Shown piece after piece: positions 4,664 to 18,548 of a stretch of DNA of 64,000 nt. Numbering within the stretch: position 1 is the stretch's first letter; each line of letters begins with the position of its first letter. Origin of the DNA: Geodermatophilus ruber (GTDB taxonomy: Bacteria; Actinomycetota; Actinomycetes; Mycobacteriales; Geodermatophilaceae); assembly GCF_900114385.1 (NCBI RefSeq), contig NZ_FOSW01000006.1, forward strand, positions 62,001-126,000. The letters are read 5' to 3'. Below the pieces are notes generated by a model. It saw only the letters and a program-made list of their open reading frames with translations, had not been told where the DNA came from and searched no databases. The translations under genes and the position numbers were made by a program.

Positions 4664-4709
4664 ACGCACGGAGAAGGCCCCGCCACGTGGCGGGGCCTTC
4701 TCCGTGCGT
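4664..4709. terminator. 46-bp perfect palindrome, bidirectional terminator
   Basis: The two 23-base arms are perfectly complementary, with CACGTG at the centre and CCTTCTCC toward the outer end. It lies between the convergent STAS and topoisomerase genes and leaves only five bases before the topoisomerase stop codon. The symmetry means it can end transcription from both sides. Confidence 0.85.
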
Positions 4710-12169: not shown

Positions 12170-13199
<1,030 letters not shown>

Positions 13200-13925
13200 A
13201 TGCCCACCAGACGCCGGCTCAAGGGCCGCACGATCGCCACCCTGGCGGCCGACGGCTTCGAGAAGGTCGAGCTGACCATTCCGATGCGCGCCCTGAAGGC
13301 AGCCGGCGCCAGGGTCGACGTCGTGTCCCTACGGCGCGGACGGATCCGCGGCGTGAATCTGCACATGCCGGCCAGCCGGGTCCGCGTGGACAAGGAGATC
13401 AGCGAAGCCGATCCGGGCGACTACGACGGCCTGCTGCTACCCGGCGGGTTCATCAATCCCGACCTGCTCCGGCAGTCCGCCCCGGCACGGGCGTTCGTTC
13501 GCGCGTTCGCCGCGACCGACAAGCCCATCGCCACCCTCTGCCATGGGCCGTGGGTACTCGCCTCGGCGGGACTCCTGGACGGACGGACCGTCACCTCCTG
13601 GCCCGGGATCCGCGACGATCTGGTCAACGCCGGCGCCACCTGGCTCGATCAGGAACTCGTCCGGGACCGGAACCTCACCACCAGCAGAGGGCCCCAGGAC
13701 ATGGCGGCCTTCGTCCCCGGAATGCTCGATGCCTTCGCCAAGACCGCGCCGGAGCCGGCGACGACAGCACCGCGTCGTCAATCGGATCCGCCGCGCGACG
13801 CACCCGTCGGCTGGGCCGTCGCCGCGCTGCGGTGGTCGCCGAAGCCGTCAGCCGCCGCCGTGGTGGGCATCGGCTTGGCCGCTGCCGCCCAGCGCGCCCT
13901 GCGTGGCCCGGCTGCGCAGAGCTGA
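13200..13925 (+). CDS. DJ-1/PfpI family protein with C-terminal extension
   Basis: This is a PfpI/YhbO-like member of the DJ-1 superfamily, linked in other bacteria to stress resistance, glyoxalase or deglycase-type activity. Residues 10-180 are the domain. The nucleophile elbow ATLCHGPWVL holds Cys114 followed by His115. The glutamate from the DGFEKVEL turn (Glu21/Glu24) completes the site. The GLLLPGGFINPD stretch is typical. After residue 185 comes an unusual tail of about 55 residues that ends with a hydrophobic alanine-rich segment (AVVGIGLAAAAQRAL), perhaps a membrane or packing helix. The ATG at 13200 has GGGGG upstream. A stress-sigma-like promoter precedes it. Confidence 0.88.
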   Translation: MPTRRRLKGRTIATLAADGFEKVELTIPMRALKAAGARVDVVSLRRGRIRGVNLHMPASRVRVDKEISEADPGDYDGLLLPGGFINPDLLRQSAPARAFVRAFAATDKPIATLCHGPWVLASAGLLDGRTVTSWPGIRDDLVNAGATWLDQELVRDRNLTTSRGPQDMAAFVPGMLDAFAKTAPEPATTAPRRQSDPPRDAPVGWAVAALRWSPKPSAAAVVGIGLAAAAQRALRGPAAQS

Positions 13926-14163
13926 CAGACGCGGGCGCCAGCTCGTGCCGAGTGATGCCGTCGCCGGTGGCGGAGGCCTGAGAGCCACCAGGTCGATCAG
14001 CCGCCGGTCGCGGGGCACGAGCCGGCCGGGTTCGCCGGCCATGCGGGCACGCATCGCCGCGCTGAACGAGATCGTCCGGCTGACCGCGTAGCCCGTGCCG
14101 GCCACCGCCGCGGCTGGGAGGTCCGCGGATCGAGGCGGGGGACGCCTTCGGGGCGGCGGGGCG

Positions 14164-14856
14164 TCACCGTGCGCGGGTCAGGCGGTCGAGGCTGATCCGC
14201 TTGTGCACCCCTTCGTCGTCACCGATCTGACGGAGAACGTCCGCGAGGGAGTCGTACGTGCCGTACTCAGGAGCGGCCAGGGACTGGAACGGCCTGTCGT
14301 CCCACTCCGGGTGCTCGGCGACGAACTGGGCGTACTCGTGCTCGGCGTGGTCTTCGATGTCTGCGTTGAACCGGTAGGCCCAGGACGGCCTGAACACGCG
14401 CATCAGCCAGAACTGCTGGTACACGGCGAAGGCGATCAGCTGCGGAAGGAGCCGGAAGCGCAACCAGCTCTCCTGTCCTCCCTCGGCGGCCTCGAGCTCA
14501 TCGAGGATCAGCACGTGCCACTTCTCGTTGTCCTGCTCCGCCCGGTCGACCTCGACGGTGTCGTGCAACTGGCGGGCGCGGGCGCTGCGCTCCTGCAGCT
14601 TGCCGGCGAGGTAGTAGGCAGCCTGTTCCCAGGCCTGGTAGGCAACCCGGTTGATGATCTCCAGGGCGCGGAATTTCGGCACGCTGCGCCCCCGGCCGAA
14701 GACGACGTCCTCCAGCCGGAACAGCAGCCGGGCCGGGATGCCGTACCGGAGGCGGGGCGAGTGGAGGGTGTTCTCCTGCCACTGACGGCGCTGCGCGGGG
14801 GTGAGCGATCGCATGGCGCCGTGCGGGCGGGCTTCGGCGGGTATGGGCTCCGACAC
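14164..14856 (-). CDS. Alternative-oxidase-like di-iron protein
   Basis: This 230-residue protein has the ligand pattern of the alternative oxidase/plastid terminal oxidase family. Those enzymes are membrane-surface di-iron quinol oxidases. Candidate ligands are Glu66 in ALEIINRV, Glu111 and His114 in DNEKWHVL, Glu168 in DIEDHAEHEY, and Glu215 and His218 in DDEGVH, the order and spacing of AOX. Long amphipathic stretches (residues 68-90, 135-155) could bind the membrane. The start is GTG at 14856 after GGGGGCG. It converges on the PfpI gene and has a strong hairpin just ahead of its ribosome site. AOX is uncommon in actinobacteria, so transfer is possible. Another ferritin-like enzyme cannot be fully excluded. 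Confidence 0.72.
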   Translation of the reverse strand: MSEPIPAEARPHGAMRSLTPAQRRQWQENTLHSPRLRYGIPARLLFRLEDVVFGRGRSVPKFRALEIINRVAYQAWEQAAYYLAGKLQERSARARQLHDTVEVDRAEQDNEKWHVLILDELEAAEGGQESWLRFRLLPQLIAFAVYQQFWLMRVFRPSWAYRFNADIEDHAEHEYAQFVAEHPEWDDRPFQSLAAPEYGTYDSLADVLRQIGDDEGVHKRISLDRLTRAR

Positions 14857-14869
14857 GGCCGCCCCCTAG

Positions 14870-14901
14870 CAGGCTCCGCGGTTGTGCCACCGCGGAGCCT
14901 G
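14870..14901 (-). promoter_or_regulatory. Strong hairpin in the leader of the AOX-like gene
   Basis: A 12-bp perfect stem (14870-14881 with 14890-14901; a thirteenth pair is possible) closes a short loop. It ends 14 bases before the GTG start, immediately upstream of the GGGGG ribosome site. No gene ends here on either strand, so it is more likely a leader structure than an ordinary terminator. Confidence 0.5.
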
Positions 14902-15152
14902 ACGCAGTGGCGGTGATGCGCCGCTCCGTCCGTGGCGGCCGCCTCCACCAACATGTCCCGGCCGGCTGATCGACGCACTCGGTAGAACAACCGATCTCGG
15001 CGGCCGGACGGCGCCGCGACGGAAGGGAGCTACGGGGCGGGCTCCAGACCGACGTTCAGCCCGCTGCGGGGAGACAGCCGGCCGGGCGAAGTGGTTCGGC
15101 CGCATTCGGGGCTCCCTCGCCTCCGCCCGACAGGACGAGTTGACCCGGCTCC

Positions 15153-15183
15153 TTGGTGCGGATCGTGGACCGGCCCCTAGCCT
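15153..15183 (+). promoter_or_regulatory. Candidate promoter of a leaderless oxidoreductase gene
   Basis: TTGGTG at 15153 and TAGCCT at 15178 are 19 bases apart. The hexamer ends seven bases before the ATG at 15191, so the transcript would begin at the start codon. No ribosome site is present. Confidence 0.45.
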
Positions 15184-15190
15184 GACCTGC

Positions 15191-16162
15191 ATGCGTGCCG
15201 TGCAGATCACCCGCTTCGGCGGGCCCGAGGTACTCGACGTCGTCGACCTGCCCGAGCCCGAGCCGGGCGACGGCCAGAAGCTCTACGACGTCTCCACCGC
15301 CGGCATCAACTTCGCCGACACCCACCAGATCGAGAACTCCTACCTCTCGGCGCAGACCCTCCCGCTCACCCCGGGCGCGGAGTTCGTCGGCACCCCGTCC
15401 GGCGGCGGGCAGCGGGTGGTCGGGCTGCTCGACGGCGGCGGCTACGCCGAGAAGGTCGTCGCGCACGACTTCCTCACCTGGGCGGTGCCCGACGGTGTCA
15501 CCGACGAGCAGGCGCTCGCCGTCGTCCTGCAGGGCGCCACCGCGTGGCACCTGCTGCGCACCAGCGCCCACCTGGTGGCCGGGGAGACCGTCGTCGTCAT
15601 CGCAGGCGCGGGCGGGGTGGGCTCGCTGGCCATCCAGCTGGCCCGGCGCTGGGGCGCCGGGCGGGTGATCGCCACCGCCTCCAGTCCGGAGAAGCGGGCG
15701 CTCACCGAGGAGCTCGGCGCCGACGTCTCGGTCGACCCCGCCCTGGCCGACGACGACCCCACGGGCTTCACCGCGGCCCTGCGCGAGGCCAACGGCGGCC
15801 GGCCGGTCGATGTCGTGCTGGAGATGACCGGCGGGCACGTGTTCGACGGCTCGCTGGCGGCGCTGGCACCGTTCGGCCGGCTGGTCACCTACGGCATGGC
15901 GAGCCGGACGCCGCCGCAGCCGGTGAACCCGACCTCCCTGATGGCCACGAGCCGCGCGGTGATCGGGTTCTGGCTGGCCCACTGCATGCGCCGACCGGAG
16001 ATGATGGACGCCGCGCTGGGCGAGCTGCTGCCGCTGGTCGCCGAGGGGGCGCTACGCCCGGTGATCGGCGGCCGCTACCCGCTCACCGCCGTCCGCGAGG
16101 CGCACCAGGACCTGCGCGCCCGCCGCACCACCGGCAAGCTCGTCCTCGACCCCACCCGCTGA
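15191..16162 (+). CDS. NADPH:quinone oxidoreductase / zinc-independent MDR dehydrogenase
   Basis: This 323-residue protein belongs to the medium-chain dehydrogenase/reductase superfamily, quinone oxidoreductase branch. The N-terminus MRAVQITRFGGPEVLDVVDL is typical. The nucleotide motif AGAGGVGSLAIQLA is at 138-151, followed by the ATASSPEKRAL fold element. The cysteine/histidine set that binds catalytic zinc in alcohol dehydrogenases is missing, which fits the quinone reductase type. It may reduce quinones or enals with NADPH. It is divergent from the AOX-like gene, so a shared redox role is possible but unproven. Confidence 0.9.
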   Translation: MRAVQITRFGGPEVLDVVDLPEPEPGDGQKLYDVSTAGINFADTHQIENSYLSAQTLPLTPGAEFVGTPSGGGQRVVGLLDGGGYAEKVVAHDFLTWAVPDGVTDEQALAVVLQGATAWHLLRTSAHLVAGETVVVIAGAGGVGSLAIQLARRWGAGRVIATASSPEKRALTEELGADVSVDPALADDDPTGFTAALREANGGRPVDVVLEMTGGHVFDGSLAALAPFGRLVTYGMASRTPPQPVNPTSLMATSRAVIGFWLAHCMRRPEMMDAALGELLPLVAEGALRPVIGGRYPLTAVREAHQDLRARRTTGKLVLDPTR

Positions 16163-18501: not shown

Positions 18502-18548
18502 GAGCGGAGTGGATTCGTGCGCGTGACGCGCACGAATCCACTCCGCTC
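18502..18548. terminator. 47-bp palindrome, bidirectional terminator
   Basis: The 23-base arms (18502-18524 and 18526-18548) are perfectly complementary around one central G. The right arm reaches into the stop codon of the VWA gene. It separates the convergent glycosyltransferase and VWA genes. Confidence 0.85.

Follow-up and report, generated by a model that had tools for sequence, protein, structure and literature searches.

A separate clade of alternative oxidase superfamily proteins with a member in Geodermatophilus ruber and a putative role in menaquinol oxidation

In our study, the window (the whole stretch of 64,000 nucleotides analysed, from Geodermatophilus ruber, assembly GCF_900114385.1, contig NZ_FOSW01000006.1, positions 62,001-126,000 of the forward strand) was found to carry a gene for a protein of the alternative oxidase (AOX) superfamily, which belongs to a clade apart from the proteobacterial and trypanosome AOX and from the cyanobacterial PTOX. 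The open reading frame pointed out in the initial annotation exists on the minus strand at 14164..14856, with a GTG start at 14856, and encodes 230 amino acids. We consider it reasonably probable that this protein is a membrane-interface non-heme di-iron menaquinol:O2 oxidoreductase representing a third branch of the superfamily. Menaquinol:O2 oxidoreduction is our best reading of its putative activity, and the protein would probably move electrons from menaquinone to oxygen.

Membership in the superfamily is supported by the profile, the fold and the register of the ligands. The Pfam AOX model (PF01786) matched the protein with 35.2 bits against a cut-off of 22.7 over residues 95-221, a stretch which leaves Glu66 outside, whereas the COQ7 model (PF03232) gave 15 bits and stayed under its cut-off of 23.5. 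The initial annotation had proposed an AOX-like protein and had named a match to ferritin-like or rubrerythrin families only as the contrary outcome; this outcome did not occur, as neither Pfam nor NCBIfam assigned a ferritin or rubrerythrin family to the window protein at E<=10, and NCBIfam had no model for it. In the alignment of the window protein with 52 relatives (53 rows), the AOX model was matched by all 53 members at E<=0.1, with a best E value of 2.4e-13, and the COQ7 model by 17 of them, with a best E value of 0.0053; one member also matched an NCBIfam ferritin model (E 0.0094). The Pfam AOX model further matched three of 98 relatives (own included) and none of 14 controls. Because of these Pfam matches, the database labels for members of the clade may already read "alternative oxidase".

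The AlphaFold2 model built from the same 53-row alignment is helical (pLDDT 93, pTM 0.89), and the ligands are located on its predicted helices 59-85, 92-125, 157-181 and 204-228. When this fold was compared with the PDB by Foldseek, the 14 best matches were all Trypanosoma brucei AOX, with E values of 7.6e-5 to 7.6e-4, a probability of 1.00 and TM scores of 0.61-0.69 by query; the next match was COQ7 at E 0.42. In the viral fold library a cyanophage plastoquinol oxidase came second (E 6.7e-6) after one unnamed entry. By sequence the two are far apart: no PDB chain was found by phmmer with the window protein alone, and a clade-only profile reached the trypanosome AOX only at E 0.49, ranking below a ribosomal protein matched by chance at 0.021. 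A profile of five PTOX and seven clade sequences recovered the trypanosome protein, with E values of 1.3e-8 to 2.2e-8.

This combined profile places the ligands of the window protein in the same register as those of the trypanosome AOX (PDB 3vv9). Glu66 (14659..14661) is paired with Glu123, Glu111-x-x-His114 (14515..14526) with Glu162 and His165, Glu168 (14353..14355) with Glu213, and Glu215-x-x-His218 (14203..14214) with Glu266 and His269, all coordinates being on the minus strand. The six residues are at the positions given in the initial annotation, and in the residue alignment of 56 relatives with six AOX and five PTOX rows they are kept in 56/56 relatives; this invariance argues that the ligand pattern is not due to chance. 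From the match to the AOX fold and the register of the sequence, the six ligands are predicted to meet at one metal site. Asn110, Tyr175 (14332..14334, minus strand) and Asp214 are likewise kept in all 56 relatives and correspond, by register and alignment, to Asn161, Tyr220 and Asp265 of the trypanosome AOX, of which we take Tyr220 to be the catalytic tyrosine and the other two to be second-shell residues.

The clade differs at the positions R118, E215 and T219 (trypanosome AOX numbering), which presumably belong to the quinone site of AOX. The R118 position is Lys and the E215 position is His in 56/56 relatives, the His being also found in four of the five PTOX rows. The T219 position, residue 174 of the window protein, is Glu in 54/56 relatives and Thr or Ser in 10 of the 11 AOX and PTOX rows. 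Among the columns of the six ligands and of the Asn161, Tyr220 and Asp265 equivalents, one AOX row deviates at three, so that the AOX count there is 5/6. Arg216 is present in 52/56 relatives, and Gly takes its place in the window protein and in L010, the relative nearest to it. In six actinobacterial sequences (L029, L043, L058, L064, L067 and L089), the AITH stretch shortly after Trp76-Glu77 was seen to be altered. The membrane binding is uncertain, since the most hydrophobic 19-residue stretch of the window protein is weak, with a Kyte-Doolittle mean of 1.07 as compared with a clade median of 1.39 and ranges of 1.74-2.27 for AOX and 1.42-2.01 for PTOX.

Phylogenetic analysis with IQ-TREE on 51 rows placed the 40 clade rows on one side of a branch with a support of 100/99 in a run for which the program warned of long branches and unsettled bootstrap; it was 99/94 for the 48 rows left when three that were long or odd had been removed. 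These trees are unrooted and represent the eukaryotic AOX solely by the trypanosome stretch. The window row pairs with L010, from an Actinomycetes MAG, with a support of 100/100, the two proteins being 59-60% identical. Over the 48 rows the mean identity is 20.5% between the clade and AOX, 27.3% between the clade and PTOX, and 23.2% between AOX and PTOX. For the window protein itself, identity is 18-20% with the AOX rows and 21-27% with those of PTOX; no clade row exceeds 26.5% and 33.1%, respectively.

The clade shares with the mitochondrial and Pseudomonadota AOX the Pfam model, the fold, the ligands and the equivalents of Tyr220, Asn161 and Asp265. Assignment to this subfamily was rejected on account of the separate position in the tree and the Lys, His and Glu residues at the three quinone-site positions. 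PTOX is the nearer of the two by mean identity, and the clade resembles the cyanobacterial and cyanophage PTOX in the six ligands, the equivalents of R70 and Y73 and the His at the E215 position. It was not assigned to PTOX either: besides the supported branch, the clade has Lys for Arg at R118 and Glu for Thr or Ser at T219, and it is without the insert that precedes the last ligand helix in Nostoc and Acaryochloris PTOX, although two short phage rows also lack it.

A pattern scan covering the 84,980 species of genome_contigs recovered 348 relatives (E<=1e-3). The 80 kept comprise 56 from Actinomycetota, eight from Rokuibacteriota, four from Myxococcota, three each from Methylomirabilota and Omnitrophota, two each from Nitrospirota and Elusimicrobiota, and two named only Deltaproteobacteria. 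As the Rokubacteria are now placed within Methylomirabilota, according to the available part of PMC8780371, the kept relatives represent five or six phyla besides Actinomycetota. The rarity in actinobacteria remarked upon earlier agrees with our count of 6/396 Actinomycetota genomes at E<=0.001, own included and one of them spurious; the weak hit G224/L009, with E 6e-4 in this search, is discounted, its best local tblastn E value being 1.3. The gene is carried by isolates of Actinomadura, Pseudonocardia, Mycolicibacter and Aquihabitans, and the clade is therefore not a MAG artefact. In one Pseudonocardiales MAG (L002/L023) the oxidase copy contains an in-frame TAG, which reflects either a pseudogene or an assembly error. 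The phage records gave no match to the oxidase, and none of 14 pattern hits in viral_contigs was confirmed, so that carriage on phages is not indicated. Matches to the window protein on plasmids were confined to three Nostoc places with 27-30% identity. Separately, plasmid-borne proteobacterial AOX genes of Sphingomonas (L164) and Azospirillum (L165) were observed to be followed by a globin gene, with a gene for an Rrf2-family regulator upstream in the latter.

In the text available to us, a 2025 survey of O2 reductases (PMC7618691) confines AOX to Pseudomonadota and PTOX to Cyanobacteriota, with one cyanobacterial AOX hit set aside, and builds scenarios of origin and transfer on this distribution. 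The hits were collected, as described in that text, by Diamond at E<=1e-10 and 25% identity, followed by an annotation check. This method probably misses the present clade, as the identities are low and tblastn of the window protein against Nostoc PTOX reaches 2e-7 at best. In the accessible portions of two further papers, AOX was not detected in acidobacterial genomes (PMC5900883), and Morris and Schmidt are cited for the presence of oxidases other than AOX across many phyla (PMC6431628). In the parts of the open-access literature available, subscription papers and preprints being outside this scope, no AOX-family protein was described for Actinomycetota or for the other phyla of the clade.

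The quinone of the carriers was approached through their biosynthetic genes. In the window genome MenD was found above the cut-off together with three cytochrome bd subunit I matches, and COQ7 was not matched. A survey of six other carrier genomes for MenD and MqnC found MenD above the cut-off in three and MqnC in two others; only matches above the cut-off were used, since both models also match controls below it. The clade thus co-occurs with menaquinone-pathway genes in five of the six carriers surveyed, which is unlike PTOX. In the remaining one, Manganitrophus (G490), neither MenD nor MqnC was above the cut-off. The available text of PMC13386864 reports methyl-plastoquinone in recent Nitrospirota lineages, and this quinone could be the reason for the exception.

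In the mechanism which we infer, two irons would be bound by Glu66, Glu111, His114, Glu168, Glu215 and His218, and the di-iron site would take electrons from menaquinol to turn O2 into water, Tyr175 acting as a putative redox tyrosine. The attachment to the membrane and the physiological role are inferred along with it. The oxidase would not pump protons, and it may for this reason act on the menaquinone pool as a valve for overflow or for the scavenging of O2.

The gene neighbourhoods in other carriers suggest redox or iron contexts which differ by lineage. In this comparison, the domain names come from a Pfam scan of one locus each, and the approximate distances from tblastn of seeds against the 80 loci, many of which have short flanks, and the window. 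Genes of the fdhD type encode a formate-dehydrogenase accessory protein, and NrfD proteins are membrane subunits exchanging electrons with quinones. In six of the eight Rokuibacteriota loci (L020, L037, L038, L044, L065 and L087, with Pfam names from L037), fdhD lies within about 2-90 bp of the oxidase gene, in two gene orders. Four loci have the order Fe-S protein, NrfD, AOX, fdhD, with NrfD about 21-67 bp upstream of AOX; in the other two fdhD precedes AOX and the Fe-S and NrfD genes are found 3.9-4.7 kb downstream. The large subunit of this formate-dehydrogenase-type cluster was recognized by eye, in five of these six loci.

Such an arrangement would also suit an oxygenase or hydroxylase with the AOX fold and a di-iron site which is not a terminal oxidase, either a COQ7-like hydroxylase of quinones or aromatic compounds, or an enzyme whose formate product is cleared by the adjoining Rokubacterial formate dehydrogenase. 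COQ7 (demethoxyubiquinone hydroxylase) is a four-helix di-iron protein of a related superfamily in which the ligands come in the same order, and both its sub-threshold match to the window protein and to 17 of the 53 members, and the changed quinone-site positions, are in keeping with this reading. On the other hand, the AOX model is matched by every member scanned and has a far better best E value, COQ7 ranks well behind AOX when folds are compared, and the equivalents of Tyr220, Asn161 and Asp265 are kept throughout the 56 relatives. Moreover, the FdhD seed was found in 6/81 stretches (80 loci and the window), and formate is therefore not a general link. An oxygenase is thus judged unlikely, and the menaquinol oxidase is preferred.

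Four loci (L026, L034, L047 and L074) have a Fur-family gene upstream of the oxidase, at a distance of about 47-171 bp, and in L034 and L026 a gene for a solute-binding protein follows directly downstream, both types of gene having been Pfam-scanned in L034 only (L034:5355-7757). A haem peroxidase, by eye a catalase-peroxidase, adjoins the oxidase in L039, a 1-Cys peroxiredoxin lies 1.6 kb from it in L031, and in the window a DJ-1/PfpI family gene is its neighbour. From these neighbours, the protein could be read as a stress or iron protein, namely a quinol- or thiol-driven scavenger of O2, peroxide or NO whose expression is governed by iron or peroxide and which contributes little to respiration. 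This possibility is considered to be slight, because the neighbours vary by lineage (the KatG seed occurs in 1/81 stretches, and the PfpI seed in none but the window), and such a role is also compatible with quinol oxidase activity. In six of nine Actinomadura loci, a NuoM-type antiporter gene is situated 1.4-2.8 kb off and oriented towards the oxidase; among the Actinomycetota loci inspected by eye, no shared respiratory partner was seen.

In the window genome, the oxidase gene is accessory and occupies a site that varies within the genus. The gene diverging from it (15191-16162, plus strand) does resemble a zinc-type dehydrogenase or quinone oxidoreductase by Pfam, as had been noted, but the proposal that the two form a unit was rejected in view of the distribution in the genus and of one sister locus. 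The reductase is present in 25/26 genus genomes (E<=1e-60) and AOX in 1/26, and in the sister genome G012 the reductase adjoins fabG with no AOX between. The interval from fabG to the reductase is 107 bp in G012 and 2317 bp in the window (12874-15190); by local alignment, the extra stretch of about 2.2 kb has its approximate ends at 12938..15175. It also carries the DJ-1/PfpI gene (13056..13925, plus strand, PF01965 with 168 bits), which is convergent with the AOX gene and whose true start is possibly further in. When the sequence before the reductase (up to 8 kb) was compared in 24 sister genomes, five sisters besides G012 had intervals of 4.0-7.8 kb, and in the other 18 fabG was outside the compared stretch. 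As the site is variable and AOX occurs in one genome of 26, the oxidase appears to be accessory and its divergent pairing incidental. Across those species of the genus in which both genes were seen (the window and L139, L140, L144, L145, L146 and L152), the interval ranges between 107 bp and about 7.8 kb, making it a variable insertion site. In the sister G010 (L149:5280-5993), a DJ-1/PfpI gene with 84% identity lies about 3.8 kb from the reductase, and no oxidase match was found beside it in that stretch.

That the window copy is transient cargo without function in its host is very improbable: its presence in a single genus genome on a stretch absent from G012, the Gly in place of Arg216 and the in-frame TAG of one relative would fit this, but the reading frame is intact, keeps every ligand and is preceded by a Shine-Dalgarno-like sequence, and L010, from another genome, has the same sub-branch features, which suggests that the sub-branch of the two proteins is maintained.

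The Shine-Dalgarno-like AGGGGG was read at 14862..14867 on the minus strand, 5 nt 5' of the GTG and between the start and a hairpin at 14870..14901 (minus strand) in the presumed 5' leader of the AOX gene. The hairpin, placed before the ribosome site in the initial annotation, is real, with perfect arms of 13 nt (14870-14882 and 14889-14901) and a loop of 6 nt. Folded as RNA, the 91 nt that include it have z = -4.35 and do better than 200/200 shuffles, and the pattern of the hairpin has one site in the window and none in 100 shuffles. Hairpins of this kind are common in the window, as 11 perfect inverted repeats with arms of at least 11 nt were counted against 0-4 in eight simulated windows, five of the 11 having arms of at least 13 nt (0-1 in the simulated windows). 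The inverted repeats at 4664-4709 and 18502-18548 are likewise perfect and have longer arms, of 21 and 22 nt. A conserved leader was rejected: the closest relative has no such hairpin, a perfect repeat of at least 9 nt within 100 upstream bases was found in 1/70 relatives scored (L041; 10 of the 80 loci were skipped for want of a start codon or for short upstream DNA), and no Rfam match was obtained at E<=1. There is thus no sign of conservation in the sequences compared. Searches for a U-tract terminator and a sigma-70 promoter gave no match for the hairpin. Copies with 2-3 mismatches occur in five of 25 other genus genomes, and these look like chance because a reversed control pattern also matches in one genome.

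Taken further, there is about an even chance that the clade is a third, unrecognised AOX subfamily which is specific for menaquinol, perhaps also methyl-plastoquinol, is spread over at least six bacterial phyla outside Pseudomonadota and Cyanobacteriota and, in Rokubacteria, ends a short chain without proton pumping that leads from formate to O2 and has its genes in a single cluster. If this is true, the single-subunit AOX chemistry arose in, or was passed to, lineages far outside those with ubiquinone or plastoquinone to which surveys restrict it. A conserved third branch among phyla with menaquinone as the predominant quinone would add a type of terminal oxidase to Actinomycetota and several uncultured phyla and would change the history of AOX. 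Further, a natural series of ubiquinol, plastoquinol and menaquinol enzymes would help to find the determinant of quinone specificity, for which position 174 (Glu as against Thr or Ser) is a direct candidate.
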